Assembly: GCA_963693285.1 (NCBI GenBank)
Contig: OY848917.1
Location: 20,007,745 to 20,071,744, forward strand
DNA length: 64,000 bases
Direction: 5' to 3'
Source of the DNA: Xestospongia muta
Lineage: Eukaryota > Porifera > Demospongiae > Haplosclerida > Petrosiidae
Shown here: positions 11,907 to 55,706 of the stretch, in pieces
Numbering within the stretch: position 1 is the first letter of the stretch
How the letters are laid out: every line of letters starts with the position of its first letter
Translations under genes and position numbers: made by a program
Notes under the pieces: generated by a model
Seen by the model: the letters and a program-made list of their open reading frames with translations, nothing else
What the model was told of the DNA's origin: nothing
The model's database searches: none

Positions 11907-12325
11907 TTAAGTGTAACCAATTGTTTTCACAACATCCTGGTTCTCTTGTACTACAGATTGACTAAGATCTTTGGAGACCTTTCTACCTAGTACTTTAGCC
12001 ATATGCAATGGAAAGAAGCGCTTCTCATTTTTTTTTAGCTATAGAGAAATGCATGTAGACTAGGCAAACAAATGTAAGCTTACATTCTCATACACATATT
12101 TCTCCAAAGCATTATGATTATTAGGATCTATAGTGTCCAAATGTAGAGCAAAATATATATAGTTCCACATGTTATGATCATTTTTTACATGATCGTCAAA
12201 ACCCTAGATAGTATGTTAAATATCTATAAATACAGTATGTCTGCTGTTACTTTGGCTTGTTCAAATTCATCGTTTTCAATTCCACAAATAAAGCAATACT
12301 CTTTTTCATCTTTCTGAAATCTGTC
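11907..12325 (-). CDS. IP3R-like gene: C-terminal linker and tail exons
   Basis: Three exons in frame. 12,325-12,251 reads YCFICGIENDEFEQAK, 12,203-12,084 reads DDHVKNDHNMWNYIYF, and 12,038-11,907 ends VVKTIGYT-stop. These match the CFICG...HIK.EHNMW cytosolic zinc-finger-like linker just after the last pore helix in all IP3 receptors and RyRs, which couples the cytosolic domain to the gate. Both CxxC cysteines and both histidines (DDHVKNDH) are kept. The tail past this point is short (about 60 residues) and lacks the long coiled coil of vertebrate receptors. Confidence 0.93.
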
Positions 12326-15300
12326 CTGTATAAAATATAACAATATTAAATTAACATTAATAGTAATCTTACCCATTCACTTCTCAGTTCAGAAAACCGA
12401 TCCACTAAGATAGCTATCACAAGGTGAAGACCCAATATTGTTACAATGATAAAAAAAGTAAGATCAAAAATGGTCCGTGTCCAGAACACTGTAAATGATG
12501 GACCAGATTGACCTACATATGTCACTGGAAGAGCCTGTGTTAAATTAGAGGTGTTATTATAGGAGCTTATATATATGTAATAATATTCACATGCAACAAA
12601 CTGCATGATATATACATTCAACTACATGTGATGTTTTTAAGAGGTCATTGAGTGACCTCTGAAATAAAATATGTTTACTTACAGCTCCCAATGTGTCCAA
12701 CAATCCCACTCTAATAACAGTGATGTAACACTCTAGTAAAGTGTTACAATATAGGTCTGCATTACGATCATAAAAGTTGTGTAGAAAAACAAATGAGAAG
12801 ACTGCATACATAAATAGAACTGCCAGTACAAGAAATGCCACAGAGATCAATTGGATAGCTAGACCAAATTTGTGTAAGGTAATAGTAAATATATTGCTGA
12901 CAAACCTACCACTTCGTCGTAAAGCGATTAAAATTTGCTCCAATGTGCTGCTCTTCAAAAAAACATAGAGAATACAACAGCAATAAAAATAACCTGATGT
13001 TCTCAAAGCCAATAGTGAAAAGATCATAAAGAAGATACGGTACCAAGGGGTAAAACTGTGAATATAGATCTTAAACGGTTTCAACTCCTTGTGTTTCTCA
13101 ATGTTTTGTTTATTAAACTTTCTGTTTAATTTTTTTTGACTCTTTTGAGAACAACACCAAATTTGTCCATGACAACATTTGATAATCCTACTCCAAAATG
13201 TATACCTTAACAATAATAGTATGGAGCTTACAATGTTCTTTTTACTCTAGCCAAAATTGCTCTTGGTCTTGGTAACGAAATGTTTTGCCACTCCAATATA
13301 AAGTATTCAGCTACCATCCATATAGCCAATATAAAGTGGATAATACCCCAAATATAGAGGAGACCATATGAATACCATATAGGTATGTCAGGAAATAAGA
13401 TAATAGTAAATGAACCATTACTGTCATCAACAAGTGTGGAACTGTTATAAAAATATAGTATCAATTATCAAATTAATCATGATATTTTCTCATACATAAC
13501 TGGTCACACAACACTCAACAAACAACAAGGCTACATTTATTATAAGCATTATCTTTGTATCATACATACTATCAATACTAAATCTACATGTACTAATTAT
13601 CATTGAGAAATAAACAACGTGTATAAATCTTAACAATTACTTCGTGTCTCTCCCTTGGTGTTGTGGAAGTTTAAAAACAGCTAACATGAGCAAATTCAGC
13701 AATAAAGTCAAAATTATTAAAGTCCATTCTCGCAATGGTCTGTATTAGAGAAAAGAGTTCCATAGAGTCTAGTTCTACTGTATTGTTGCTATGGCAATAC
13801 TTAGTCTTGCTTAGATCATGTGTCACTAATTACAACTTACGAGGCTATTTGAGACCACCGAAGATACCACTTGCTTTTTATTGTTTTCTATAAATATAGT
13901 AATAATATTGTAACTTCTTAAAATAATAATCTCTATTCATCTTAACTATCTATAATGGACTTATTTTGAAAAATGATTATCAAACCTTGTGTTTGTTATT
14001 CTTTTTAATCGAACCTATCCACTTCATTAGACCATTGACTTTGTCCTCTGGTGAATCACGTTTGATTTTTTTTCTCAAAATTTGTTTATGTTCCTCAAGA
14101 AGCTCATCCTACAAATAAAGAGAATAGTTATAAAAATTATGGAGCAATTAACAGAAAACACACAGATGAATAAAATGGAAAATAGACCCTTGTTAATATC
14201 TCTTTCTTGTCATTCTCATTCACATAGTTAACTTCAATACTGCGAGAGAATCCACTAACATAGTTCCACATTGCTTTCATTTCAGATCGATCATTAATTT
14301 TGACTACAAATAACAAGAGCTAATTAATTAATTGTGTCATTTTAAATTACCATATTCATTCACTGATATACCAACATAATCAGCTATTCTCTTCAAGACA
14401 TGAAAAACTCTATTTGACAGATAGAGAAAGGCACATTATTGTACCTCTTAATACTTTTTAAATACTTTTACCTGAACATTCCCTTTTCTCTATCAGTAGT
14501 ACTATCAAATGTTTTCTAAACATACATATTTGACATTATATTAATTATTAATTGTTATTCTAATATTCTTACATATAAATTTTTCATAGTTGTCATGAGA
14601 GCATCAATGTCAAGATCTCTAGATATTTTCACAGCAAGTTCCTTGCTTTTACTGTCAGTCTCCTCTAACATTATTTCCAGTAATTCAATAGCTGATATAT
14701 GAAGATATGTTATTTTATCAGACTATCATTGAGAATGTATATGCTATCAAAACATTCCATAGGATACCTTATAATTTAAAATATTATTTATTGATTCCAC
14801 TACTTGACTATTAAAGGCTATCTCTTGGTTGCTGTAGTTACCAGCACAAATATTTATAATAGCCTGTTGATAAAGTAAATTGATTTATATAATATTATAA
14901 GATAATAAATTGTTAACCTGGATGTTCATTTGTATAAGTTGAAAAGTGTCTTCATTTAAATCATCAGTAAATGTTTGTAGAAGTGAAATTATTTCAACAA
15001 GAAGATTGATGTTCTATTGGTAAATATAAAGTGTTTGTCATCATAGTTTCTTTTGTTAAACTAACGGCAAAATTTTGATCTTGTTTTCTAAAGAGATCTT
15101 GCATTTCCTTGTTCTGTCCATCACACATTGATGCAACAACTTCAAGAACTACACTGGCCCTCTTTTTAGCTTCATCCTTACTAATTTCCTATATCAGTAG
15201 CAATATAAAACTTTACTAAACAGTAAAGATAATCAAAACACACTAGTTGACCAGCAACTGCCTGTCCATCAGGCATGTCTACATTGGTGCCACTAATGAA

Positions 15301-18300
15301 GCATTTCGTAACTGAAATGTCTACATCTTTAGTAGATAAGGACACTTCAGGTTGTGATTGATGTATAAGAACATCTTGTGTAGTGTCCCATAATTATTTA
15401 TAATAGAACTACAAAAGTAACTACATTTCCTTACTAAAGTCATATATGGTCCAGCATCTTCTAAGGGATCATTTGGATCTGTTATCACCTACATACAAAG
15501 TATGACACTAAATACTTACAGTAGAGAAATGACATCTATACATACATTGTTAGGTCTATCTATTGGTGGAGGTGCCTCATGAGATGAATGCTTTCCAATC
15601 TCTTTCCTAGGGAAGGTGTGGTTGTGTGATAAATCTGCTATGTGTAATAATATACCAGAGCTATGCATGCATTCTGTAAGTTTCTCACCAAGGTTGAGAT
15701 TTGCCAAAACTGGAAACAACACTTTCTAATAACTTGCTTATACGTTTAAAAAAGGGAACATCTTTGCTACTAGTTACACTTCTTCCTATACTCAATACAA
15801 AATGTTTTTAGAGTGTAAACAATGAATGGAATCCAACTAACCTATTTTTTTCTGAGCATTCCTATTACCTTGATACAGGAGAACATCAAGAAAACCCAAT
15901 ACTTGTAAGGCTATATCATCTTTAGGATGACCAAGGAGAAGGAAGACCTGTGATAGTAATTTCAAGTCTCAAATATTATATTCTTTATAATATATCAATG
16001 TAAAATGAAGAATGAATTGTTTCTGAAATGCAATAATTGAGTCTAATCTAAATTATTTAAAACTATCTATCTCTCTACCCTATATAATAACAGTTAGTAA
16101 TAATAATTTATAATACCCTATATACCTAGATAGATAAAATCTACCATTTCTCAACCTAGTTGGTATTCTTCTGTTAATACCTGCTCATGTGATTGTGCAT
16201 CAACTAGTGCTTTTTGTAATGGCTCAACAGTCTCCATGTATAGTCTGAGTTTGAAAATAAACATAGTATTAAATCATGTTTACAACTTACTGTATAAAAG
16301 TTTCTGGATTGTTTTTTCTAAGGTCTGGATTAATATTAACAATATCCGCAATTTTTGTAAGTACAACTCCTGAAATGACTTGTAGTGTAGTTTGTAGAAG
16401 ACCATCTAAATCTGCTCTCTCTTTACTTGTAATTGCTTGTTGTAGACGTTGATAAATAATCCTAAAGACCAGACTATTATAGTAATACAATATATATAAC
16501 TTACTTTACTAATGTCAGAAGTTGACTAACATTGCCAAGTTCACAATTTCTTAATACCTCATCAGACATTGGTCCACTATATTTGGTTCATATGTTCCAT
16601 ATTAACATTGTCAACATCAGTTCTTACCTATAATTAATACCTTCAGCAAAGTAATGTACCATTGCTATGAAGCTAGCTCCAGTTGGTAATATATTATTCA
16701 CATTATGTACAGGGTTACTAGAGTAGCCAGCTGTCTCAATTATGTCACTACAGTCATCTGTCATCCTTTGATTAGCTCTTCCTTCATATGTAATTTTAAA
16801 ATTTGTAACAAAGCATTGAAATTGTTTGTTAAGCTCTTGCTCATTCCTCCAAGTCTGTTCAAAATTGTCATGACTGGTTGATCTTCTGATTAATCCTGAG
16901 TCCCTAAACTAAAAAATTTAAAATGAGAATAAGTGTTTCCTATATTGTGTTAGTAGATATTTTGTAGAGAATGACAGCAACTACTGCTGTTCAATATATT
17001 GAATAAATTTTTAAGTTGATAACAATAATCCTATTTGTCTATTTATTACCTCATTTTGTGACATCTTCACATCAGCAGACAATATAAAATTAAGCATCTC
17101 AAAGAAGATATTCCAGAGAAGCATTTGTTCCTTTGTTGTCTTAAAAACTGCAAGATGTGTATCAACTAGTTTCTATACAAAATGCAAAATGTAGTTATTA
17201 TTTATGAATGAATAGATATATGATGGATGGATGGATGGATGGATAAACTCTTGATAGATAAAATTTTAGTGGATGAAGCCACTTTTGTATGTTCACTTGG
17301 ACACTTGTATTAATAACTGCCTTTCATATCCTAGTCCCCAGCATTGGTTGATATGGAGTGTTTGTTACTTATCTTAAGCTTACTATTAATTATGTCAACT
17401 AAATTGAGAAATTTTAACTAAAATAGCTCAATTTATTAATAACTTCAGATTCATCATGTACTAATTTAAGCAATTTTATCGTTTTAAATTAATTTTATTT
17501 ATATAATATAACTTTTAACATCTACAAATTTGGCAATTATTGCAGAATTCACTACATTTGCTAAAACTAGTACATACAATTGATAGTAGGCATAAATCTT
17601 TACGGCAATACAGTACGGCAATGTCAACCAATACTTACACAAATTGAAGTCCTTAAGAGGCTGTAGCATGCAAAGAGTACCAGAATTAAATTTGCTGAAT
17701 GTGGCATCCAGACATTGACAATATTGGTTGTTCCTTTGGTATCAGTGCTATTCCAACATTTTGTTAAGACTAGTCTAAATTTTGGTTCCTTAATTAAATC
17801 CAAAAGTTATATATTTTTAACATTATTCATCTGAGGATTTAGATTAATGATCTTGTGGCTTGACGACTCTATCTCAATTTATCTATCCAGAATTAATCTA
17901 ACGATACAACAATCAAGTTACTTACAGCTGCTGCATCATTAATAGACTTTAAAACTGATACTATTTGAGGTGTAAGTAAACTTGTATAAGACTTAGTCGT
18001 AAGACTAGATAATTGAGTACAGAATGTAGTTACTAATGGTATTATGCCATCAACTAAATAGAACAGAAATGAATTCAGAGGTACTCCATCATCATCTTCA
18101 CTAGACTTCAGTAAAATAGCTAAGTCAGTTGTCTTCTTTTTCCAGGCCTGGAAAGCATTTAAAAGATATTATAAATGGTAACAATAATCACCTCATGTAG
18201 GTGTACAACACTTATACTTACAGTTATAGTCATGTGATGGGAAAACAAGAATCTTAGTTTTTGTTCAATCTCTTCCTTTTTAATCCCATGTAATGTGGTA

Positions 18301-21300
18301 GTCAATGATGCCATCAACACTGAACATTTTTCCATGTGTGTCCAAAATAATCTAAATTAGTATATATAAAAATTATAGCATTAATAGTAGTATAAAATGA
18401 CTTACTCATTACTACATAAATCAGAAATAGAGACAAGAGAATCACGTTCAGTGTTTAAATAAGCTTGAGTAAGCAGTCTACTAAATGGTTTCTTCCTCTC
18501 AAATGACACAACTGGATCACTGATAATACTGTAGTTGATATAAATAAATACTATGAAAATGATCTGTAATCTAACCTTACTAATTCTTCTAAAGTAAATA
18601 TCTTCTGACAAATAGTTACAGCATCTTTACATTGTCCTTCAGCACATGTACTTAACATATCTGTAACACTAAGTAATTGTAGCAATTCAATTGAACCATC
18701 TTGTGACTATAAAAAGGATTAAAAGGAATACAGAAATTTATTTTGAATTTAGAGTACCTTTTGTAAAATATCCAGTCTTTTTTGGCAGTTTTTGACATGC
18801 TCCTTACTTCTTTGATTAAACAAATGAACAATCAGTTTTTGATGCTTCTTTAAAAAAACTGGTTTATCATGAGGTGACTTGTAAGGCTAAGAGTGTATGT
18901 GATTATCATTAAATACAATAAAACATTATACTAATACCTTCATAATAGTTTGTAGGGTAGAATAGAAGTCACAATATTCTAAATTAGTATCAGTTGTAGC
19001 TAGTGAGTAGATCTGTCTGATATCACCCTCAGAGAGATTACAACAAAGATCAGGATTATCACAGAGTGACTACAGTGAAAAAACAATATTATGAAGAAGG
19101 TCACAAGCTCTAAGCAACTGTTAGAATATCAACATTCGATATTAAAATCTACCTCAGTCAAAACATGTGCCACTGATGAAATAGCAAGTCTGACCTCTAA
19201 AAAATCCACAAAGTTGTCAAGAATCCTTCTTTGTGCCTATAAAAATAAGGTATTGATGTGATGGTGTTTATTATATAAGCTTCATTACTTGATCATTTTT
19301 ATAAATAATTCGTTGTAATGCCCAACAAGTAACATTTAGTAATCCCTCTTGCTCTTCATGATCAGTGCCACAATACGTTATTGCGTAAGTCACTAAAGCT
19401 TTGAATACTCCTAAAGAATAAAGTGCCCATTGTTAAGTATACATTTTATGATATGAACTGTATGAGTAATTACTAAAATGAAATAATTGAGTTTATTTGC
19501 TGCTGTGTAAGACTGTCAGCTGTCAGTTGATATAGTAAACATGACTCATATAGTAAAACTAACTTTGATCATGTAAGAAGCTAACATATTTGATTGCGTG
19601 TACTGATAAGTAATAACTCATATTTATTTACCTGAAGTAATAGTAATCATTTGATGACAATAATGAGGCTGAGTTTCATCATTATCAAGAGTACACATCT
19701 CACCAACATAATTTAAAAACTTTTCTGCCAGTTTGCAAATGGTACCTAAAGAAAGTCTGTCTGGTTTTAGAAGTAAAAATAGATGTTTTACATGACTGAG
19801 GTTGATGTTCATCAAGATTGGTTAACAACACATTTGAATCACTACAAAGGTCACCTAAAGAACATAATCGATAGTAGATGCATTGCATAAATATATGTAG
19901 AAAATTATAACAATAAATTATATGCATTGCATGTACAAAATCACATTGTTTGAATCTTCTAAGATCTATGTAAAACTTATGTGTTTAACATAACTCAACA
20001 ACTAACCTAAAATAGCTGTTCCTTGAATCATACGAAGCAAACACTTGTCTGATGTCTTGGAGAAACATCCAAATTTTATCATAATTTCATGGACATTATT
20101 AAAAGATTCTGTTTCAAGATATGAAATGCTAGCTTCATGAAAAATCAGGTTCTCTTCCTAATAAATTGCATTTATAAAATGAAGACATGAGTCAACTTAC
20201 ATTAAATATATCAAAAAGTAGCAATGCACTACTAATTCTTAGTTCATCATTGTCATATTTCATCAAGTCTACAAGGATCTTTATTAAACGTTGACCCTCC
20301 TCTTTAGTCCTGTCAAAACATTGAAATCCTGATTCAGCAAGTAGATACCGAAGTTGATCACGAGCTAATTTAATGATCCTGTAAAATAACAATTTTAGCT
20401 GCTACAGCTTACTTCAACTAAACTACTTACTGAGTGGGCTGATCATTTAACTGATAACTTTCATTCAGTAGCACTCTAAGGGACTCATTAATTGGTGTGT
20501 AGTCATCTGGTACATCCCCACCACTGATCTTAAGATGCAGGTACTTAAAGTCATAGATCAGTTTCTAAGGTAGGTTCATAGTCAATTTCATAAATTAAAA
20601 TACTAACCATCATACACATGTTACATAGCTGTTTAAGAAAGAAATGAAGAACACGTATGGCCCTGAACAATGATATGAGTAATATATCATTATTATTATA
20701 TACTTACTTAATTTTGATCTTGAAGATTTCATTGTTTCCAGGGACATTTTTATCATATCCCCCTTTTTCTGAGTATTGTTGATTTTGCTGATCATTGCCA
20801 TCTACATAACATAGGTATATGTTACTCAATCATTAATGAATCTTTGATTAACTTTGTTCATGTTTGTCAGTTTCACCATCTAAAATGTCAATTGTAACTC
20901 CAATAATTTCTCTGACATCTTCATCTTTCCAGTAGAAACCATATGACACTAGTGGTTCCATTACAGAAAACATTTGTTCCATCAATTTATTGTGACATTC
21001 AACTTCTTGTGCACATAATACCTTCAAAAAAATTAAATGACAAATTTACTATAACATAAGTAATAATAATATTACCTTGTTTTGTTTAAGAAATTCTCTG
21101 ATAGTTTTCTGCAAATCTTGCATTTCTTGAGCATCAGGAACAATAGCAAATATATCTAAAAGCCTCATTGCCATGGTTGGATCAGGGCATATGCTACTCC
21201 ATTTCTATAAACATTAACATAATATGTAAGATATATCTATTTACTTACATAACAATGCCAGATATTATCAATATCTATTCCACTTTCTTCCACATTCAGA

Positions 21301-24300
21301 TCAACATAAGTTGAACAAATATAGTCAAGGTATGCAGATTTAAGAAGAGGATGAATTTCAAGATCTTTAATACAAATCAGTGCGTCTTCAAAAGTAATAA
21401 ACTTCCACTCTTTACGAAATAAGTCAATGGAACGCATATTTACTCCCTATAGAAATATTAATATGTGTTATACATTAAATTATAAATCACAATACACAAT
21501 TTGCAACTAAAGTGCTATAAATTCAAGTAATTGAAATTATATGAGTGTGTCATGTATATATTATACCTTGCAGACTCCGCTAAACAGTTTAAGTTGAGCA
21601 ATAAAGAATTTGCATTTTTCTTCCACCGTACTATTCTTTAGTAATGAAAAACATAGAAATAACAAGTATATCAATATTTATTACATGCATACTTTGGAAC
21701 AGTACTTAAGGACAGGTCCTTTGAATTCTTCTGGAGATAAAAAACATATTGTTTTTTTCCCATCGTTTTCAACAATTTCAGTCTGCACAAAAGTATCCTA
21801 ATACAAAAGATAAACTTAGTCAATGTGAAACCACTTCTGTGTGGTAGTGTAGAGGTTTTAAGTTTTCAAAGTCAGTCATAATAATTGTTATAATAACATT
21901 AGTTACCAGCAATTTTAACACAAATTTTAGAATATTCAATATACTAACTTTTTTTGGGGTAATAAAATTCTCAAGAATCAGCGCTAAGCAAAAAGTAGTA
22001 TATAATACAATGGTATTGTTCCTTACATTGAAGATGTCTGGATGGTTTACCAGCAATAAAGCTCAAAGTCCTTAAAAAATCAAGTGTGGATGGTACAGTC
22101 TGTAATTATCAACAAACAGTGATTAAATTATCTCAATTAATAAGAACTAAGCTTACAAGTTTTGACATGATGTATTTTTTATATTCAGAGTTACTTAAAA
22201 TTTTTTGGGTGATAGCACTAATTTATAGAAACAATAAAACATTAAAAATACTCTTAATTAGCAAATGTATTAGGTTTTTTAAGTGAATGATACCAGTAGC
22301 AATGTAGCCATACCTTTCATCTCTTACTAATCTACTTAGAACTTGCTCTATACCAATATCATAACCAACCTAAAAACCAATAACAAACAAGTTATTACAA
22401 CATATAGGTCATATTTAAAAAATACCATCAATGTTGTAAAATTGTAAATATTCTTATGACTTACTTTATAAACCAAAACATCTAAAAATCTGTCAAGAGC
22501 AAGATAGAGCTGAAACTTCTTATTTTCATAGTCAATATAACAATGAAGTACTTTTGATACTTTTTTACATAGAGACCTACACATAATACTGTGAAATTGA
22601 GGGCATAACACAGTATATGGTAATGAACTTACTGATCAATTTTTAGAAGTATATATGCAACAAGAATATCAACTCCCTATAATGTATGAATCAAAATTGT
22701 GAATAAATATTCATTAATGAAATGATAAGATAAAATGAGTATATTATATATTATGTTACCTGAGCAATTCTCAACATATTAGGTCTATTCCTCTTTTGAG
22801 GTATCCATTCACAAAGATCTTGAAGAAGATTATCACATTCTTGACGCATAACATCAGATTGTGATTGCTCACATTTCTCAGTCAACTGTAACTATATGGT
22901 TGAGAATATTTATGTAATACAAGTTAAAGTATAATTAGCACAATATAACTTATAAAATACACTTATAGAATATTACAATTGTTTAGAAATACATTAAAAG
23001 TTTAAACAGCATAATATACAAGTAAATAAAAACATCTTCTATATAAAAAAGTAAATGTAGGGATGGCATATTGCACTCCTTTACAAAGAATGTAAACCAG
23101 ATAATAGGGATGGCAGTTGCATCGTCACTACATAATAGCACAAAAATAGAATTGAACAATATTACTGACTATTAAGTTCATTTTTCATCTTGTTTTTAAA
23201 CATCTAATTGTTTGTGTGACCTGGGAGGGAAGGTAAAAGGATTGCTGGGAGAAAAAGGAGAGAAATTATTGTGAGAGGGAGAGAGAGAACCATTTGTTGT
23301 GATTGGAGTAGTGGTTGAACTTAAAGTGAGCCTCAAAGAAAAAGAGACAGCAAAGCAGGTGAATGAGATAAGGGTGTTTTGCCAAGCTGGCAGAAAATGC
23401 TTGGTTGTTAAAGAGAAAATCTACATCCTTGTTAATGGCTGCTGCAGCAACCATGAGAAGAGGCTTTTTTGCTGCTATTAATGGATTGCCATGACAAAGG
23501 CCACTGAAACCATTTAAATAAGCTCTGCTGGAAGCCTCCACCGCCTCAGGAGCCTGATGCATCCAAGATCATTATAAGTCTACATGGTAGGCTTGGAAGG
23601 AATGACACCCTTCTACATTCTTTTACAATCAGGGACCACCATATGATGTCAGATCTGCATTTCACATTAGGGTATACATGGTCCAATGGTCCTGGGGATC
23701 ATCTAAATAGTAAATGACACTATTGATGCAATTCTTATTAAAGCCCTGGGTCCAGTTTTGTGTAGAACTAGCATTTATTGGCAACAGTTAAATCATCATG
23801 GTATAATGATGTAGAGACAAAGTCTGAGAACTTAACAATCAATATCCTACAAAATAATTTAAAAAGACATTTCACTTGCTGAAACAACAATGTCAATACC
23901 TATATCATCCAGACAAATTTGTGGACACTGTTTTACTGAAAAGAATGGTACATTCTTAAAACTATTAAATAAGCAAGACACTCTATTTCTGTAAAGTAAT
24001 TTCATATAGTGAATTAATATTATTTTTTTGGCTGAAAAATAGGATGTAATATTAAAAACTTGTTTCCTTGTTAATGTTACTTTGTATTATTACTACATCA
24101 CATGATTTTGTTAATGAAGCACATAACTTCCATCTTTTGTAAGAGATCTCAAAATTGTCTAAAAATGAACTTGTGGTTATTATAATCAGCTGTGATGCTA
24201 TGGTGATAGGGTGGCTAAGGTCATTAAATGAGATATTAACCAAAGAGGAGACTGGGTGGTGTGACATGGTGGTAACACATTAGTGACTAGGCAGGCAGTG

Positions 24301-27300
24301 AGAAAATCTGTATCTAGGTGGGGGTCTGGACTATGGCCAAGTTGGGTGTTAGCTTGTGGTGTGGTTTCTTTGTGACTTGTGGGTGGTTGGGTGGCCTGGT
24401 GGGCCACAAGAGAAGTTAGTGAGCCGTGGTTAGTGACCCATGAGTGGTAGAGGTGACCCAGTGACACTGTGGTGAGACTCAGGTGGTAGGAGTGTCCGTG
24501 AAGGAGGCCAGAAGCAACCATGGTACAGGCCATGAGAAAGTATATTAAGTACACTCACCAAGTTCTGAGTCCATTATTATTGATGTAAGGGAAGGTGACT
24601 TGACTGAGCCTGGTTTATTTTAGGAATTATTCTGACGAATTCAGGACAATTCCTCCTGAATTGTTCAGAAAATTGTTCCAAGGAGGGCTTCCACAAACAG
24701 GACAGTTGGTCTGAGGTGTTATCAGTGCCTGACACAGATGGAAGTGTGGCAATTTCATCCATAGCAGTGTGCATGTATAGTGAGAGCTCAGAGAAAAGAC
24801 TTCGAGTACTAGACAAGTGAGGGACATTTTTAACCAAAGATAACTCTAAGGGTGAAAACCTGGACAAAGTCTGCCAAATGTGAGGTACTCCTCAGGATTG
24901 CACATGTTTTCAGTTGCTATTAAACTCATCTAAGGCTACACCCAAAATCTCATTATATAAGTGTAACTTAAAACAATTGCAATTCTCAAATTTATTCGTA
25001 TGTCACATCCTGTTCTGTGAAAGTGGCCTGGATGTAAGAGGCGAACCAAATAACATTGTCAAAATGACTACTTTACTAACTCGAGCACTCAAGATGTTGC
25101 TTGCAAAAATGGGTAACACACATATGTTTTAAACTGTGTTACCTCAGTAAATTGGTGATTAATGTTTTTGGTTTTGTAATTATTGTGTAATACAATGAAG
25201 TGGCAGTAGCATAAGTGGAAAAAAGATTTTCACTATTTAGTAACTTTTTAATGTGATACTTGCAAACAATCTCTGAACTTGTGACTAAGTCATTACTTAG
25301 GTACTGTTGTAGAAAGAAGCACTATGGAGTATTGAGAACTTATGATCAGCTTTAATTGATGAAAATGTTTCACATTTTCCCTAACACAATGGTTGTTTAA
25401 TTGCTAGTGCAGCAGATTATTACATGATCACATAACACCTTCATAAACCTATCTAGATTAATCAAATGCTTACAGGGTCTGACAAGAGACAGAATTATAT
25501 ACAAGATAGGAATGAATCTAGGGGTGCCTGTGATGCACGTGTACCCTTTTACTCTATAATGAAATTCATACTTTCAATTGAACAATCTAGGTCATCCTTA
25601 ATAGGTGTTGCTACCTTATGCTAATAAAATGTAACATAAGCCTTATGACATAGACATGCTCATTAAACTTATGTCATTGGATATTTAGCTGCAAAAATTA
25701 AAATTAAAATCAATATTATATAAATCATAGTGGAAATCTGTACAGCATAGGAAGTGCATACTCCAAGCAAACTTAATACAGTTAGGTTCTAATGTGTTTA
25801 GGGTTATAGGTCTAGGGTATAGTAATATTTTTGGATGCATGTACTTCCTGTGGCATACAAACAGTCACTGCCTATACAAATCAATAACTAACTACAATGT
25901 TTACCTTCATCAAGTGTTTACTTAATACAGTTGTTACTCCAGACACATAATAATAATCGTGTACTAAGTCCACATCAACCTATACAATAATTAATACATA
26001 TATGCCTACCAAATCAATAGTACCTCATCAATACGAAAATGGTGCGGTAAACTGTCATCAGTGGATTCAAGTCCAAGCTAAACAAAATTAATGAAAGTGG
26101 TATCAAATTCTTCACTATCTATTTTATTAAGTGTGTAGTTTAAATAATGTCATTTTGTGAATACTTACATTGAACCATCTACTCTCTGATGAAGGATCAA
26201 CTTTAACATTTGACAGTGCTTTGGGTACAAATGATGACTCTAATATGAATTATAAGTGTAGTCTATATTAAAGTTAGACAACTACCTTTGACAGCCAGAT
26301 TTTTGACAGAATTAACATGTCGTAGTTGAACATATGATCCCTTCGCTATTACTTTATTTTCCTATAATAGGTATGACAGATATATATATATGTGGTTGTT
26401 TTTACTACACAAATAAATAAATACTTTTATGTTTGCTGACTGTTCAATTGATACAAGACTGAATGTTACTTGAGGATCAGAAGGTTGTCCAGGTTCTAAC
26501 TTCTTTAAGGAAATCTAAACAATAAATTGTTGAAGATGTTAATTAATGGCAAGCCACTAACTAAAGATTGTTGTCCTTCTTCTTGTGGTATCACAGCCAA
26601 GTATTGCTGACTTGGCAAGTGTTTAATGCGACATTTTTCATTGATTTTAAGATGATCACCTACAATAAAATGAAAATAAAATCAATTCATATAGTCTAGC
26701 TATTGATTACATTATGATAACAGCTGAACACAAACCTAAGAATGGTGTTTCAACTTTTTCAAGTTGCCAGAAACAATCTCCTGAAAAAGGTGGAGCTTTG
26801 TGTATTCCTTGGAAACTCCCTCTCTGCAGAGCACCCACTAAATTAATTAGACAAGATTTTACATAAAATTATTTTAATGGTTCATGGGCATCGGAAGTCA
26901 ATTAAGAATAGTAGGGCAAGGAAAAAAACACAAGGTAGACCAGAACTTTGGTATCTAATTATTCCGTATGGTTAATAATTATACATCAAATAAAGCAGTG
27001 AATTAAAAGACCTTTGCAACTTTGAAGATGAGAATTTGTCCGAGGATTTTATATGTTTAACCATGACACCAAGAATGTTATTTGAGCCATTGCAATAACA
27101 CTTGCAAAGGTTGTGAAGGCAATTATTCATTGCAAACAGTAACCAATTGTTAATATTCCAAAATTATTACCTGTCCTACTGCTCATAATCCCTATGGCTG
27201 TTATTGCTATCTATAGTTAAGTTTATAACTGATGAGTCAGCAGAAGCTATCAAAGATGATTTCTTGAGCTACAGAACTCAGAAGCTTCAATCAATCAAAC

Positions 27301-27431
27301 CCAATTCAAGTGCTCACAGTAGAAGTCATTGGTTGCTATGTGTGTGTGAGTGCTTAGTGTATCTGGGTAATTTTCATTCATTGCTCTCAAACGATGCATA
27401 CAACAATAGATTAAAATGTGAAATAGACATA

Positions 27432-27467
<36 letters not shown>

Positions 27468-29760
27468 GTACACATATGTGGTCAAACAATCTTAGGCCTA
27501 CCTAGTACATTGCACATGTACATGACAGGACAAAAATGCAACTATATATCAAAATTAAGATGCATACATAGGTTAATAAGTCTTCATTTGTTTATAATAT
27601 TTATATATACTCTAGGGATTTGGTAAATGAATATATTAAATGTGTAAGATGCTTGACTAGCAACTTTTATCCTCATTAGTTCTACTGAATGCATAAGATC
27701 TATAGATTTACTGCCACTAAATTATGTGATGACTTTCTTATGAATATTGGATCTCATATTAGATGATGATTCTGTATCTACTGTCACCTTCATTAATTGT
27801 TTCATCTTGCTTTATATGATCAGATACATGCTCTAGTGAAGCACATCCAGCAAGATATGCTTCACGCTTCATATCAAATAACATAACTACACCACATCCC
27901 TATTAGTATAAATATATGACATCAAATACATATTTTGTGAGTTCACTTACTCTAAGTGCTTTGTCATTGATCTTACATGCCCTTGTCTGACAGTAGATAG
28001 CAAAGGTTGAGTCAGTAACAGCCATCTTCAATTCATACCTAAATAATGACACAACAAATATTTAGTCCAATTAGATTTTCATTTACAAAACAACATCATA
28101 GCTAGTCCATACTTGAAATAATGCTACAATTTAGTAAGACATTATCATTTAATTATAGTACTAGTTTTTAACTAAGATAAGTAATGTTAGACAAATAGAA
28201 TGTTGAATTATAATAAATACAACATCATAGATGCTATAGTGATCTTTCAGAAAAACGTATGTATGTGAAAACAAAAGAATATTGTAGACCTGTCTGTAAG
28301 AGGATTCTTTATAAACAATGCGTGATGCTCTTTCCTAGAAACGGAAGCTAGTTTGACTTTGTCTTTTGGTAATATCTAGAGGAAATACATGAGGATTGAC
28401 TGTTCACCTTTAAAATATCTTACTTTATCTCCTTTTTGTTTCTCTGATTGAGCAGGTAAAATTCTAAAGACACAAGCTTCTTTATCAAATTTATCAACTG
28501 GTACCAGTGTAGCCTAACAAAGAGAAAAGTTCAAAGTTAGTTGAAAACTGTAATAACCAATATATCAAATTGTAGAGGTCAATCTAACCTTTTCAATGTT
28601 TGAAATAATGTTAATGGAAAATTTATTGTAACAGTATAAACTAACTTACAATGGGATTAAGTGATCCTTTCTCATTGACAGATGGCAGTGACAAATATTT
28701 GTTGGAAGAAACATGCAAAAGCTAGAATAATTAACATATTTATGTTTACAGTGAGGGTATCACAAAGTTCAATAATTACTTTAATCTTACGTCCATAGAC
28801 TAGATCACAATGACGAGCTTGAACCTGACACAAAAGACTCAATCATTATGTCATAATACATTTTTCATACATATACACATTATAGCTGTGACAAATTTGA
28901 TTTTTGAGAGATAGGGCCAAGATTAATTGGAAGATGGTAATAATAACACAGATAATTTTTTTTTAATAAGATCTTGGAACAATGTGAACTTAAATAGTAT
29001 ACTAGATACACAAAATGACTTGAAATACATACAAACAGATTTTAGTGTAATTTTATACCTGTAGTAATAGATATAATTATATAAGACATCATCTTTAACA
29101 ATGCAAATTACTATTGTTTTTAAGATATAGTTTACCTTTGGAATTTCCAATGGAGATGTTGACCTGCAAAGAATAAGTAAACTAAAAGCTAACATTCATT
29201 AACATAACCTATTAAAGCATGCAAAGCAAAATACTAGACACTCCAAAATAATGTTATAGTCCAGTCTTCATTACAGAAGCCCACAGTAAATTGTATCTGT
29301 AATACAGCTCTTGCATTTGGACTATATATATAACTTATATCAGGAGCATAATAGATCTAATAGTAACACACAATGGCATATATCTAGTGACATGAGTTTT
29401 GAGTTTCTTAGTATTCTATAAATGTAACCTACTAATTAGTTGGTTAAAATAAGTTTTCAGTGAATGAAACCAATTAATAAATACTTATTGTGCACTTACT
29501 TGGTATCAGGTATAACTTGAAAACAAGCAACTAAAGAGATAATAGCAAAAGATATATGATGAGAAAGTACAATTAACTTAATTAAATTTGTAACTTTTTT
29601 TCAATAGTACATAAATCATTGAGGTCAACTATAGCATTAATAGTAATAATAATAATGATAATATAACAATAAATCTTACTAGACAGTCTTTTGATTACAT
29701 ATTCACATTAAACAATCAATTATTTTGGCTTCGTCTTCATGGTAGTGTTTTATTGCAAGG

Positions 29761-29808
<48 letters not shown>

Positions 29809-32800
29809 CATGCATATATGTACGTGTGCATGTATGTATGTATGCATGTATGTATGTATGCATGTATGTATGTATGCATGTATGTATGTATGTATGTATG
29901 TATGTATGTATGTATGTATGTATGTATGTATGTATATGATTGGTTTCAACTATTCAAAACAGTACATAAATCATTGAGGTCAACTATAGCATTAATAGTA
30001 ACAATAATAATGATAATATAGCAATAAATCCTACTAGACAGTCTTTTGATTACATATTCATATTAAACAATCAATTATTTTGGCTTCGTCTTCATGGTAG
30101 TGTTTTATTGCAAAGTATATATATATATATATATGCATGCATGTATGTATGTATGCATGCATGCATGCATGCATGTATGTATGTATGTATGCATGCATGT
30201 ATGTATGTATGTATATGATTGGTTTCTACTATTCAAAACAGTATCATTAGGTCAACTATAGCATTAATAGTAATAATAATAATGATGATATAACAATAAA
30301 TCTTACTAGACAGTCTTTTGAACACATATTCACATTAAACAATCAATTATTTTGGCTTTGTCTTCATGGTAGTGTTTTATTGCAAGGTATATATATATAT
30401 ATTTATATGCATATGATTGGTTTCAACTATTCAAAATTTCACAATATTAAACAATAATAATTGTGGTATTTTATATTTAGCAATGCTTAATAAACAGGTC
30501 AGCAATATCAAAATTTACAGAAGTAAAAAATGATTCAATGTCTTGTGTATTGAAAACAATACTCTTGAAAGAGTCAAACAAGCAAAGACCGGGACTTAAA
30601 AGATTAATTCGCTGAATACCATCATGATACTGATGGAAAATTGTTTCAATGGTTCGATTACCTATTGATAAAAACTTTTCTGTCAGACACCATCGTTAAT
30701 TTTGGAGGGTAAATCTCTGTTTGCAAAACCTTTGCTATCACTGAATATTAAAGTAAGGAGTGGGGCTAGTGACTAGACTCAGAGTATGAAGCAGAATATT
30801 CAAGTTCTTTATTGAGCATAGTCAGCCAGACCAAACTCAAAGTGGGAAAGGACTTGATGATGAAGAGACAGAGGTATGTAGCATGCAAGATTACTTTAAA
30901 ATAAATTGGATTTTAAATAAAGAATATCAGAAGAAAGTTTCACAAGTATATCATTGCTACAAAAGCCCATGAAATAGAAGCAAGTTGGCACTATAATACT
31001 TAATCCTTTAGAAAGATATTAATAACAAAGGACAAGTGTTGATACAAATGTTGCTATATACAAAATGGCACAACCATTATAAGAAGATTTATCATTGAAA
31101 ATTTGCACCCATTGTTGCATACAAAATTTGAGGCTTAGCATGATCATGTTACACTATATCAGATGGTCCTATATTTGTTAAAGGAAGTCGTCATGACTAT
31201 TTCAGAAATTAAATGTGGTAAGTGATGGTATCCTGTTGCAGTTTGCTTAGTGCTTAAATTCTTTAATTTGTTATGTGCCAACATCTTAGTTCAATAGGAT
31301 TGCTGTTCCAAGTATTTTTCCAAGAATGTGGCCCATAAGTTTGATAGTACTAGTACCTAGCTCTAGTTAAACCTTATCTCCTGATAATCATGGAGGCATA
31401 ACCTACCCCTATGTTGTCCTTTCTGCTAACTCACTCACTAATTTACATATAAAGTTTAATCAATTAGAAATATACTGCTGTTCTTTCAAAATTTGCTAAA
31501 ATTATATTTTAGAGGTTCCTCCTAGTGTACCAACCTCTACTATTTTTAAGGAACCATCAAATTAATTTGAAATATGATGTTATTGAGCATGAAATATAGG
31601 AGATCTATGATAGGTGCATATTCAATTTAGGTGACCTCTAAATTGAGGGTTATAAGCTTGGTCAAAGATGAACTTAATGTGTCAATATGTTGATTATATG
31701 CTGATTCAGGGCAAATTATTGCTCCAAAAAGTGCCAATGATTCTTGGGTCTTTACACTTACATATGGCAATGTCTCATATTGATGAAATAGATATTAAAG
31801 AAATGAACAAGAAACTGTAATCATCCTTTTTGGACAAATGGTTCAGGGACTTATCCAGACCTATTGTGAAGTCATATTTTCAACTGGCTACTAAACTTTT
31901 GCCAGACTCATAATCTTTTATCTGACCCTCAGTTCAGCTTTAGATCTGGTCATTCACAGAGTCCGCTTCCATTAACTCATGGTTTACTCAGCTGGATAAA
32001 GGGTACTCTATCTGTGCAACATTTTTTGATCTAACTAAAGCATTTGACACAATTCCACATCAACCACTTCTTGATGTCCTCTTTTCACTTGATATCCCTC
32101 ATCACCTTATGGTTTGGCTTCAAAGCTATCTCACTCTTCAATCTCAGCAGGTTGTTGTTGATGGCTGTTCCTCTTCTAAGTCCACCGTCCTATTTGGTGT
32201 TCCTCAAGGCTCGATTCTTGGACCAATTCTCTTTTATATGTGAATGACATATTCCAGTGACCTTTCTCCTCAACTTCATCCATCATCTTATATGCTGACG
32301 ACATCCTTCTATCGTGCCCCTTCAAATCATCCTTCGAATTTTCACTTGCACAATCTAACGTTAATATTCTCTCTTCCTGGGTTAAATCTAAACACTTAAC
32401 GATTAATCACTCAAAAATCAAATACATGATTATTTCCAGAAAGTCTCCTACATCTTTTACTACTCTTCCTTCTCTTTTCCATGATGGATCACCTCTTGAA
32501 TTAGTCTCTTCATTTAAGTACCTAAGTGTTACTCTAACCTCTAACCTCTCCTGGTCTACTCATATCATTGAAACCTGTTCTAAGGCCAAGAAACTGCTTG
32601 GCTACATCTATCGTCAATTTTACCATAACTCTTCTTCTTCTGTTCTTATTAAATTGTACTTGACATTAATCCTCCCCATCCTTATGTACAGCTCCTTTGT
32701 TTGGGATCCATATTCCATTCCTAACATCAACAAATTGGAAAACGTTCAGCATTTTGCCCTAAATCTCTGAAGTAAAATTGGACCTCTGATTACGCTCTAC

Positions 32801-33955
32801 TTCTACAACTTTCAATCTACCTTCTCTATCCTCCTGTAGAACAACATCCATGGTTGTCCTTTTATACAAGTTCATCTTTAGTAAGCTCTACATTCCTGCT
32901 GGCTCTTTTTCATTTCAAAACCAGTCCTCTTATAATTTATGTTCTTTTCACCCATTAAACCTGAATCAGCAGATCTTCTGGTACCCTCAACTCCTTCCTT
33001 CCCAGTGCTATTTCCCTGTGGAGTTCACTTCCACATCATTCAAAGATCTCAACTCTGCAAGGCAGTTCAAGCAAAATATTTCTTATTTACTTTAAAATCA
33101 TATCAGGAATATAGTGTATATATTGTTCATATTTATTCATTCATTCACCTGTTCATATTTATTCATTAATATCATCACTTATCATAAATCCTTCACCTCC
33201 TATTTTATTATATTCTATTGTTTTTGATGCTCTTCATATTAGCTTTGCTATTGAGTGTCTTTTGTGTTTTAATAAAAAAAAAGTCACAGACGGACATTCC
33301 AATTCCTAATTCCTATATCTTCCACGCACCTTTGCGTATTAAAAAAATCCAACTAACAACCCAGTTGATGAGTTCCAATTTCTTATTCCATTTTGGCACT
33401 AGCGCCATTTCTAGGCTTTTTGTTATACTTAATAAATCGCGGAGCGAGAGTACCACGAGACATCTCTAAGGATCGAGCGTCAGCGAGATGTTTCCAGTTG
33501 GGTGTGTTCCTGATTTCGGTTGTATATTCGAATTGGAACCCATCAACTGTATCTTTAATTAGAATATAATGTGCGCGGAAGAAATAGGAATAGGAATGTT
33601 CGTCTGCGCTTCCGTATATTATTAATGTGATTGTTCAAAATGTCAGTTCGTAGTCTACTACGCTTGCGTGTTGATGCACCTACAGCTCTTGTGTATAAAA
33701 CACTTATCTACTTACAGTGTACATTTGGGAAGACAGGGTCATTCCACTGTGCTAGTTCAGGGTTACTTGCAGGAAAAAGAGTAACAAGTCTATTAATAAG
33801 AGAGTATAAATTTTATTTATAAAATTAAGCACAATGCAGTATGACATTATGCCAAAAGCAACTAGTTACCTGGAGTACTGTGAATAAACATATCCTTTTG
33901 CTTCAGCACAGTACAAAAGAATAGTGTCACCTTCAGAAATGTGTCCACTATCCAT
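11907..33955 (-). CDS. IP3-receptor-like channel protein, divergent paralogue
   Basis: A minus-strand gene of many short exons separated by mostly 40-80 base introns. ATG at 33,953-33,955 and TAA at 11,907-11,909 bound roughly the 2,700 residues usual for IP3 receptors. Domain order follows the family: N-terminal beta-trefoil/MIR, RIH armadillo helices, long helical middle, RIH-associated domain, membrane channel, then a C-terminal CFIC...HNMW zinc-finger-like linker. Canonical IP3 receptors release Ca2+ from the ER on IP3 binding. Here the filter GGGVGD is replaced, RTTGR is absent and Y-R-K of the ligand pocket reads Y-E-N, so a normal IP3-gated Ca2+ channel is doubtful. Exons checked join in frame. 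One gap remains: exon 1 leaves two bases while the next recognised exon (29,530) needs one, so at least one exon is unseen in the transposon-filled first coding intron. RyR is excluded by size and lack of SPRY repeats. Confidence 0.92.
12373..13741 (-). CDS. IP3R-like gene: membrane channel domain
   Basis: Exons: about 13,741-13,650 (TM1, LREWTLIILTLLLNLLMLAV), 13,441-13,232 (IWGIIHFILAIWMVAEYFIL), 13,205-12,683 (several TM segments, including ISVAFLVLAVLFMYAVFSFV) and 12,534-12,373 (last helix, FFIIVTILGLHLVIAILVDR then FSELRSEW). The exon starting ALRRSGRFV matches the ...SVTRNGRSI... S4-S5 region of IP3 receptors, and CNTLLECYITVI matches the pore-helix CDTLLMCIVTVM. Directly after it, where the family has GLRNGGGVGD, this protein has GLLDTLGA joined by splicing to ALPVTYVGQSG. 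The filter glycines and the acidic residue are gone, and the splice junction (GGAGCT/GTAAGT to CACAG/GCTCTT) is clean, so the loss is not a modelling error. The gate helix itself is well kept. Confidence 0.92.
13980..15200 (-). CDS. IP3R-like gene: RIH-associated region
   Basis: Short exons read LLQTFTDDLNEDTFQLIQMN, IINICAGNYSNQEIAFNSQV, SINNILNYK and LLEIMLEETDSKSKELAVKI. They align with the RIH-associated segment of IP3 receptors (LESLTEYCQGPCHENQN..., then [20 protein letters not shown]). Downstream exons (14,295-14,214 and 14,108-13,987) carry NYVNENDKKEILTR and a basic stretch KQILRKKIKRDSPEDKVNGL, leading into the first membrane helix. This part forms the helical layer linking the ligand end to the pore. 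Identity is low but order and length agree. Confidence 0.75.
15420..21450 (-). CDS. IP3R-like gene: central helical (armadillo) region
   Basis: About 25-30 small exons, mostly 70-180 bases, with open frames between GT-AG sites. Examples: 15,722 to about 15,550 (LANLNLGEKLTECMHSSGIL), about 15,950-15,843 (LGHPKDDIALQVLGFLDVLL), about 16,465-16,290 (KERADLDGLLQTTLQVISGV) and 21,437-21,240 (FRKEWKFITFEDALICIKDL). The peptides are leucine-rich amphipathic helices, as in the ARM2/ARM3 solenoid of IP3 receptors. LLYQGNRNAQKKI matches the family phrase LLYHGNTTVQDSF. Other parts are too diverged to align by eye, and not every exon boundary was fixed. A (GATG)n microsatellite lies in an intron at 17,220-17,243. 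Confidence 0.75.
21820..22900 (-). CDS. IP3R-like gene: RIH domain (alpha half of the ligand core)
   Basis: Exons read LLQDLCEWIPQKRNRPNMLR (about 22,890-22,757), SLCKKVSKVLHCYIDYENKK then FQLYLALDRFLDVLVYK (about 22,577-22,463), GYDIGIEQVLSRLVRDER (about 22,368-22,315) and PSTLDFLRTLSFIAGKPSRH (22,095-22,025). They align in order with the rat IP3R1 segment holding NRERQKLMR, the RVLRHSQQDYRKNQEYI helix, IGYDVLAEDTI and RFLDYLSDLCVSMNKS. In that protein R504, K508, R511, Y567, R568 and K569 hold IP3. Here the Arg of the NR pair and the Arg of MLR may be kept, but the DYRK position reads DYEN, putting an acidic residue where R568 binds phosphate. Confidence 0.88.
22950..25900. mobile_element. 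About 3 kb insertion in an IP3R-like intron
   Basis: This intron is about 3 kb, whereas the matching interval of the decayed copy (5,260-5,940) is under 0.7 kb. The extra DNA contains a segment (23,050-23,150) resembling part of the 36-37 kb satellite, a moderately GC-rich block with long open but unrecognised frames (23,220-23,780), and a G-rich plus-strand tract (24,230-24,540) of GTGG-type phrases. No reverse transcriptase or transposase motif was recognised. It is probably one or more insertions of unknown type. Confidence 0.5.
25905..26400 (-). CDS. IP3R-like gene: exons linking MIR and RIH parts
   Basis: Exons: about 25,979-25,905 (VHDYYYVSGVTTVLSKH), about 26,077-26,024 (LGLESTDDSLPHHFRIDE), about 26,240-26,167 (VPKALSNVKVDPSSESRW) and about 26,365-26,285 (KVIAKGSYVQLRHVNSVKNL). 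The last matches NSYVRLRHLCTNTWVHST of the MIR fold in IP3 receptors. All four have counterparts in the decayed copy at 5,945-6,390, where two carry frame-shifting deletions. That contrast is good evidence that this copy is under constraint. Confidence 0.85.
26570..29530 (-). CDS. IP3R-like gene: N-terminal beta-trefoil and MIR domains
   Basis: Exons joined in frame: 29,530-29,500, 29,163-29,136, 28,824-28,780, 28,721-28,650, 28,513-28,424, 28,375-28,290, 28,038-27,951, about 27,899-27,825, then about 26,838-26,575. Peptides LLHVSSNKYLSLPSV, CGVVMLFDMKREAYLAGC, DCFWQLEKVETPFL and CRIKHLPSQQYLAVIPQ match in order IQLLHLKSNKYLTV, GGDVVRLFHAEQEKFLTC, KALWEVEVVQHD and FRFKHLATGHYLA of IP3 receptors. 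Both beta-trefoils of the suppressor and ligand core are therefore present. The RTTGR loop that contacts the IP3 phosphates should follow the EAYLAGC strand; instead the sequence is LEHVSDHIKQDE, acidic and unrelated. Confidence 0.88.
27060..27820. other. Intron content, (TA)n microsatellite
   Basis: A long intron of the IP3-receptor-like gene between the 27.9-27.8 kb and 26.84 kb exons. It contains a perfect (TA)n run at about 27,436-27,463. Open frames of 60-90 codons here show no family resemblance and no splice context. Confidence 0.5.
29600..30430. repeat. Three tandem units with expanded (ATGT)n
   Basis: A unit beginning near gaggtcaactatagcatta and ending attgcaaggtatatata occurs at about 29,600-29,770, 29,955-30,130 and 30,235-30,400. 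Units one and two are each followed by long ATGT/ATGC tetranucleotide arrays (29,783-29,935 and 30,134-30,215), while the third has almost none. Spacing is about 355 and 272 bases. The open frames of Tyr-Val-Cys-Met or Ile-His-Thr over this region are repeat artefacts. It lies in the first coding intron of the IP3-receptor-like gene. Confidence 0.9.
30477..30695 (-). other. Unrecognised open stretch in an intron
   Basis: A minus-strand frame of about 70 codons contains FHQYHDGIQRINLLSPGLCL and IESFFTSVNFDIADLFIK, then TAA. The composition is protein-like. An acceptor-like CAATAG lies just inside its start. It does not match the IP3-receptor segment expected here. It could be transposon debris or an unrelated nested exon. 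Confidence 0.25.
31110..33200 (+). mobile_element. CR1/jockey-like LINE, truncated and frame-shifted
   Basis: Reverse transcriptase blocks appear in order but in different frames: IKCGKSDGIP (31,205-31,235, like the KSPGPDGIP block), FFDLTKAFDTIPHQPLL (about 32,020-32,075), FGVPQGSILGPILFYM (about 32,192-32,240), YADDILLSC (about 32,291-32,316), then FKYLSVTLTSNLSWSTHI and KKLLGYIYRQFYH (32,515-32,630). The aspartates of FFDL and YADD are those that bind catalytic metals in this enzyme family. Stops and shifts separate the blocks, so it is dead. It sits antisense in the first coding intron of the IP3-receptor-like gene. A minus-oriented fragment of the same family lies at 7.8-11.1 kb. Confidence 0.85.
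33287..33606. mobile_element. Fold-back MITE of about 320 bases
   Basis: The left end, cagacggacattccaattcc, is matched in reverse complement by the right end ...ggaatgttcgtctg. The pairing continues inward (cttccacgcacc with ggtgcg-like cgcggaag; ccagttgatgagttccaatt near 33,361 with aattggaacccatcaactg near 33,522). No coding capacity. It lies about 350 bases from the ATG of the IP3-receptor-like gene, within the first coding intron. Confidence 0.75.
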
Positions 33956-52600: not shown

Positions 52601-52911
52601 TATTAAGTATATTATATAACTGTTTTTATAGTCCATATATAAGTATGGGATTTATGCAATTAGAGAAGATTATTAATGAAGCAATTATTGAATGGAAAAC
52701 TGGACAAAACGCTAGCATTGATGTTGCTGTCAGGGTAAGTATATGTATATATTTGTGATAAGCAACCACTTTGGGTGAAATATTGTGACCTGATTTGTGA
52801 AAAGGGACCACTATAAAAATATTTAGAAACAGTACATACATACAGTTATATGTACATACAATTGCTATATGTGCACAACTATTCATGGTAACTATGTGTA
52901 TATAATATGTA

Positions 52912-52945
<34 letters not shown>

Positions 52946-53038
52946 GAACTGTTTTTGAGGTGTTTTAACAATGGTCCCCTTTCACAAATCTGGTCACAAA
53001 TGTTTTAACAGAAGTGGTTCCTTATTGCAAATCACGTT

Positions 53039-53095
<57 letters not shown>

Positions 53096-55642: not shown

Positions 55643-55706
<64 letters not shown>

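Follow-up and report, generated by a model that had tools for sequence, protein, structure and literature searches.

An expanded clade of IP3R/RyR-superfamily genes with a replaced selectivity filter in the sponge Xestospongia muta

Metazoan IP3 receptors (IP3Rs) and ryanodine receptors (RyRs) are described as conserving the selectivity filter GGG[VI]GD (PMC3213138, PMC7399828). The closest described departures from this filter lie outside animals. Paramecium has 34 IP3R/RyR-like six-TM genes in six groups, CRC I-VI; the full GGG[VI]GD is reported for three members, most have a partial or altered version and in CRC-VI the filter bears almost no resemblance to it (PMC3213138). Filter variants are also described in IP3R-type or RyR-domain proteins of oomycetes, where ITPR homologues retain GGG (GGGIGD, GGGLG[GS]) and the PKDRR pores are polycystin-type (PMC7399828). 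Because of the Paramecium precedent, expansion together with filter divergence is not unheard of in this superfamily. For animals, no report of a comparable expansion was found in the literature searched, which was mostly open-access and included PMC7016017, PMC5095125 and PMC10280926. The new element is a filter replacement in every member read of an expanded clade, alongside intact IP3R and RyR pores encoded by the same genome. Similar to Paramecium CRC, the sponge genes combine a large lineage expansion with filter divergence. Unlike the diverse groups of the ciliate, they form one clade with the motif in none of 32 loci and an intron in the filter, and a canonical IP3R and RyR occur alongside that clade in the same animal genome.

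The gene studied here lies in the window, the whole stretch of 64,000 nucleotides that was analysed (Table 1). Its exons were derived from a spliced model of the window gene against a paralogue at C1:20.152 Mb, 132 kb away. The raw result comprised 69 exons and 2,737 aa, and three exons were corrected by hand: the 5' end of the pore exon was set to 13187, in agreement with homologues P0001-P0003, one exon end was set to 12084, and the last exon (12038-11907) was added. Across the armadillo region the exon boundaries should be taken as approximate. In the model search, stops were forbidden in the window gene and scoring was codon-aware, which makes the openness of this gene, like its whole-gene dN/dS, a partly circular result. 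Stops in the paralogue were only penalised; it has 3 of them across the 2,713 codons aligned in the model frame, whereas the two shifted frames contain 201 and 312. At 5 of the 69 model exons, the net length and that of the paralogue differ by a number not divisible by three. On its downstream side, the gene is closely followed by open frames (window 8443-9513, plus strand) with Tc5-type DNA-binding and DDE_1 transposase domains, which identify a putative pogo/Tc5-like transposon. Simple-repeat stretches at window ~29750-30215, 52885-53150 and 55550-55750 gave spurious low-complexity protein matches.

Table 1. Coordinates of the window gene and its parts (window positions), and of the main clusters of related pore loci in the genome.
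Feature	Position	Strand	Basis or remark
IP3R/RyR-superfamily gene	11907..33955	-	~70 exons, ~2,800 aa; approximate comparative spliced model
Exon: S4-S5 region, S5, pore helix, first filter half (...CNTLLECYITVIRVGLLDTLGA)	12683..13187	-	sequence; 5' end hand-set
Phase-0 filter intron, 148 nt, GTAAGT...ACACAG	12535..12682	-	position common to paralogues
Exon: luminal loop and S6 gate helix (ALPVTYVG...VIAILVDRFSELRSEW)	12373..12534	-	aligns with RyR2 S6 (solved structures)
Exon with CFICG, first half of CxxC...H..H C-terminal zinc-finger region	12251..12325	-	sequence and structure matches
Exon FDDHVKNDHNMWNYIYF..., His half of zinc finger, C-terminal domain	12084..12203	-	3' end at GTAAGC hand-read
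Last coding exon, LKKNEKRFFPLHMAKVLG...KTIGYT and stop	11907..12038	-	hand-added to spliced model
RIH_assoc domain, several exons	14777..15164	-	Pfam
MIR domain, several exons	26220..26772	-	Pfam
Ins145_P3_rec (N-terminal trefoil), best stretch, several exons and long intron between	28322..33716	-	Pfam
Main pore-locus clusters	C1 20.02-20.21 Mb; C2 13.43-13.77 Mb; C8 4.19-4.61 and 5.51-5.70 Mb; C15 4.71-4.75 Mb

Pfam searches of the uncorrected 2737-aa model detected PF08454 RIH_assoc (47.1 bits, cut-off 28.5), PF08709 Ins145_P3_rec (45.1 bits, cut-off 23) and PF02815 MIR (36.3 bits, cut-off 25.6). These were the only three families up to E 1; the RIH domain PF01365 had no match up to that value in a model that is approximate in the region concerned. 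RyRs are ~5,000 aa long and their specific cytoplasmic domains are SPRY domains and RyR repeats. Unlike them, the window gene encodes ~2,800 aa, gave no RyR-specific Pfam domain up to E 1 and lacks GGGIGD. Against solved structures, its pore matched RyR with up to 62 bits and IP3R with 55-57 bits, and its N-terminus matched the N-terminal regions of IP3R1, IP3R2 and RyR. S6 and the CxxC...H..H C-terminal domain are present and are matched by solved RyR and IP3R chains, the alignments examined being those to RyR2; IP3R chains likewise match the stretch from ALPVTYVG to VIAILVDRFSELRSEW.

Thus, the window gene has an IP3R-type architecture, with trefoil/MIR, RIH_assoc, S5-pore helix-S6 and a CxxC/His C-terminal domain in ~2,800 aa, and its homologous pore combined with RIH_assoc/MIR places it in the broad IP3R/RyR superfamily. 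Unlike IP3Rs, it lacks GGGVGD, PF01365 was not detected, and no RxxGR was seen at the place aligned, with low confidence, to the IP3-contact motif. This arginine motif is RTTGR in mammalian IP3Rs and RQSGR in the IP3R at C11. The likeness to RyRs lies in the slightly better pore match and in a RyR at C5 whose filter is also split by an intron. The earlier note had called the protein IP3-receptor-like, a label that fits the architecture and is only partial for a pore that scores slightly higher with RyR. The full architecture was derived from the window gene as one member of the clade. Pfam searches of the raw genome were run exon by exon and missed even this gene's N-terminal domains, visible only in joined exons; such searches are therefore uninformative on which paralogues lack these domains.

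The replacement itself lies at an exon junction on the minus strand. The exon bearing GLLDTLGA (ending ...CNTLLECYITVIRVGLLDTLGA) stops at 12683 and is followed by the donor GTAAGT (12682-12677), while the ALPVTYVG exon (ALPVTYVGQSGPSFTVFWTRTIFDLTFFIIVTILGLHLVIAILVDRFSELRSEW) begins at 12534, directly after the acceptor ...ACACAG. The join 12683/12534, across 148 nt, is in phase 0. In a gap-free alignment anchored on the common GL, canonical GL-RSGGGVGD stands against GL-LDTLGAAL, so that of four filter glycines a single one survives and the Asp is lost. Neither the GGGVGD of IP3Rs nor the GGGIGD of RyRs is present at this position, which reads GLLDTLGA/ALP instead. A glycine filter is encoded in no frame of the intron. 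Additionally, window 11701-35600 was scanned by regular expression on the minus strand (three frames, strings uninterrupted by introns) and yielded no GGG[VI]GD-like string; the lone exception was a GGGG immediately after a stop near 23545. The earlier note had read GLLDTLGA plus ALPVTYVG in place of GGGVGD, joined by canonical splice sites in the right phase, in a pore that keeps its fold and loses its Ca2+ filter. The minus-strand sequence bears out the swap, the splice sites and phase agree with those of the paralogues, and the pore is still recognisable by structure matches with GGG[VI]GD absent.

Nine protein homologues were found among public records, and all five that extend to the filter carry GLLDTLG. 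P0001, P0004 and P0007 are 97-100% identical, over the matched part, to loci of the same assembly. P0002 and P0003 are 74-76% identical to the window gene; no fetched locus matched them better, and no second locus exceeded 69% over their span among the genome matches listed. These two therefore probably originate from a different individual or species. At the protein level, both continue from GLLDTLGA with VS, the residues expected from reading through a GTnAGn donor. A further protein search, for which a C8-type S5 exon served as query, gave no matches.

A comparison of the window gene's pore protein with all 28 contigs (158 Mb) of the genome gave 118 exon-level matches. These correspond to ~40 paralogous pore loci as counted by eye, some of them fragments and most of them clustered; this count leaves out the receptors at C11 and C5 and one weak C9 match. 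At 35 of the 40 loci the filter could be read, the other five (C1 20.074, 20.097 and 20.124 Mb; C8 3.808 and 3.887 Mb) being degraded or partial S5 pieces only. The three on C1 (L053, L054, L055) are stop-ridden S5 copies that separate the window gene from the nearest open paralogues, and represent gene death inside a tandem array. The locus at C1 20.146 (L056) has no pore-helix exon, leaving 34 loci with both filter exons joinable. In 32 of these no stop interrupts the stretch between pore helix and S6 gate helix, and a GGG filter occurs in none of the 32.

The splice sites at the filter are similarly conserved. Of 35 loci, 34 have a GT donor, which reads GTRAGT in 28 cases; the donor of C2_13.556 was replaced by hand. 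The script found an AG acceptor at 32 of 35 loci and the remaining three were read by hand; that of C15_4.737 is uncertain because it lies within a repeat. The filter introns measured by script are 43-365 nt long and occupy the same position as in the window gene, with a common phase 0 that is partly assumed, since the script examined codon boundaries only. A single-gene oddity or splice error is ruled out, as the paralogues carry both replacement and filter intron. Because the replacement is common to 32 of 32 stop-free paralogues, it is a trait of the clade and not a splicing fault or a quirk of one subunit. Of the earlier interpretation, filter loss in a recognisable pore stands; that the replacement is common to a whole clade goes beyond it. 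Two loci 82 kb apart, L038 and L039 (C8:4.192 and 4.273 Mb), have identical pore peptides and filter-intron lengths and are either a very recent duplication or an assembly haplotype duplicate. Separately, five weak RIH_assoc matches at C4 9.98-10.21 Mb (E 0.05-0.09, below cut-off; open frames of 236-278 aa) had no pore match among the matches listed, and reflect another related family or chance.

The replaced filters follow a pattern. GLLDTLGA is the commonest form (7 of 32), GLLNGFRA occurs at five loci, and most of the 32 members fit the consensus GL[LVMI][DNGI][TSGN][LFIY][GRK]x. Arg or Lys takes the place of the third filter glycine at 7 of 32 loci; this substitution would give the filter of a tetramer a positive ring. 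The loci of this sub-group, with GLLNGFRA, GLLGGFKA and GLLGTFRT, are found at C2 13.43-13.65 Mb and C1 5.389 Mb. Removal of seven near-duplicates from the 32 stop-free loci left 25 representatives, all of which have R-x-G-L ahead of the filter. The order that follows is a hydrophobic residue, D/N/G/I, T/S/G/N, L/F/I/Y and G/R/K. The position two past R-x-G-L is D in 14, N in seven, G in three and I in one representative, and the third-glycine position is G in 19, R in three and K in one (23 rows with a letter; two rows are gapped at the last two positions). The filter columns are more variable than those of S6, which agrees with retuning of the pore and equally with a filter in which the precise chemistry counts for less. 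A possible likeness to Cav or PKD2 filters was dropped because the acidic position of the replaced filter is not invariant.

To assess selection, we calculated dN/dS for 13 pairs chosen by hand from the 25 representative rows. All 13 values were below 1 (0.09-0.81; 76-78 pore codons). Three were closer to neutral (0.61, 0.65 and 0.81), and for two of these dS was very small; the two values obtained with dS ~0.04 have little meaning, and dS above 1 is saturated. For the window gene versus C1:20.152, dN/dS was 0.20 from pore helix to S6 and 0.40 over 2,703 codons of the codon-aware-scored model. Taken as a whole, these ratios indicate that the pore is under purifying selection.

A canonical IP3R elsewhere in the genome, the presence of which the earlier note had proposed to check, lies at C11, and there is a RyR at C5. 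The C11 pore, with GVKSGGGIGDVIRRP and the filter GGGIGD, matched ITPR2 best (E 6.8e-26). The C5 gene reads GLRSGGGI followed by an intron and matched RyR best (E 3.5e-45); of two possible acceptors after this intron, the one giving GGGIAD was used. Because the intron splits its filter, the C5 RyR was missed by a GGG[VI]GD pattern search of the genome, which returned ten matches, of which C11 alone was taken further. The intron within the C5 selectivity filter (L064, C5:8320000-8324000, ~2180-2560) differs in phase by a single base from the filter intron of the clade, and this near-coincidence may weakly hint at a common origin. In a tree, 28 clade rows were separated from five canonical rows by a branch with 100/98 support and a length of ~1. 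The tree has few columns, long branches and a partial ITPR2 row, which makes a placement of the clade nearer IP3R or RyR unreliable.

How should the missing filter be understood? An alternative or unrecognised exon could restore the canonical filter in the mature mRNA, a cassette exon being conceivable in principle where an intron sits inside the filter. This is extremely unlikely: the 148-nt intron has no Gly-rich frame, the paralogue introns measured by script are just 43-365 nt, and the gene-region scan was negative, so the idea, which the earlier note had named as counting against its reading, was rejected. Gene decay would also explain a lost filter. Pore stops do occur in C2_13.518 and C2_13.556, and an open pore does not mean an intact gene, as exemplified by C8_4.538, which has a stop further upstream, and C2_13.645, which enters a simple repeat upstream of the pore helix; moreover, the paralogue at C1:20.152 has three in-frame stops and the window model is stop-free by construction. 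Against decay stand the 32 of 34 joinable pores that are open, dN/dS below 1 in every chosen pair, the conserved splice sites, and a stop count at C1:20.152 far below that of the shifted frames. Filter loss is therefore probably not decay, and we regard a family of pseudogenes as highly improbable.

Two further explanations accept a functional protein. Clade members might join canonical IP3R or RyR subunits in mixed tetramers and alter or dampen their Ca2+ flux, since S6 and the C-terminal domain can be aligned with RyR/IP3R and the genome also encodes canonical partners; the clade is nevertheless distant from both canonical genes and far outnumbers these partners, and we consider this rather unlikely. 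The closest rival to altered permeation is a non-conducting pore, in which members would be IP3R/RyR-shaped scaffolds or poison subunits that serve ligand sensing or the tethering of the ER to other membranes and pass no ions. In mammalian IP3R1, D2550A at the filter Asp is alone sufficient to stop Ca2+ conduction, and the pore-dead receptor still supports store-operated entry (PMC10406432). The absence of both GGG[VI]GD and Asp from all 32 stop-free loci, filter columns that vary beyond those of S6, and Arg or Lys in seven filters would all suit such a scaffold. A disused pore, however, should not need the conservation seen in R-x-G-L, two pore-helix cysteines, much of S6 and the filter pattern. 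We hold this possibility to be a serious one, yet doubtful. The constraint on lead-in, gate helix and patterned filter tips the balance slightly from a silent scaffold towards a gated channel of altered permeation.

The explanation we prefer, with about an even chance of being right, is that a tandemly expanded clade of the IP3R/RyR superfamily assembles and gates without canonical Ca2+ release, its permeation being altered. With a canonical IP3R and RyR covering Ca2+ release, the clade would have been freed to change its pore. Tetrameric assembly and gating would be retained, and the pore would no longer handle Ca2+ as an IP3R does; this change in handling is suggested by the missing filter Asp, the variable acidic position and the Arg/Lys in one sub-group. 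The likeliest outcome would be an endomembrane channel opened by a non-IP3 cue, for which the poorly aligned N-terminus is the sole basis, and with different permeation, either weakly selective or monovalent, or perhaps not cationic in the sub-group with Arg/Lys. A bolder proposal, which on the present sequence comparisons we think unlikely, is that the clade, with its dozens of tandem genes, constitutes a novel functional class of giant IP3R/RyR-shaped channels in an early-branching animal, with a neutral or positive filter, non-Ca2+ permeation and a non-IP3 ligand. If it were true, the Arg/Lys sub-group would pass an anion or osmolyte, and a Ca2+-release scaffold would have been reused for a different ion signal.

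Dozens of loci that keep the scaffold without the filter, under purifying selection, provide a natural test of what this scaffold does beyond Ca2+ release. Additionally, the clade could show how permeation in the superfamily can be rebuilt.
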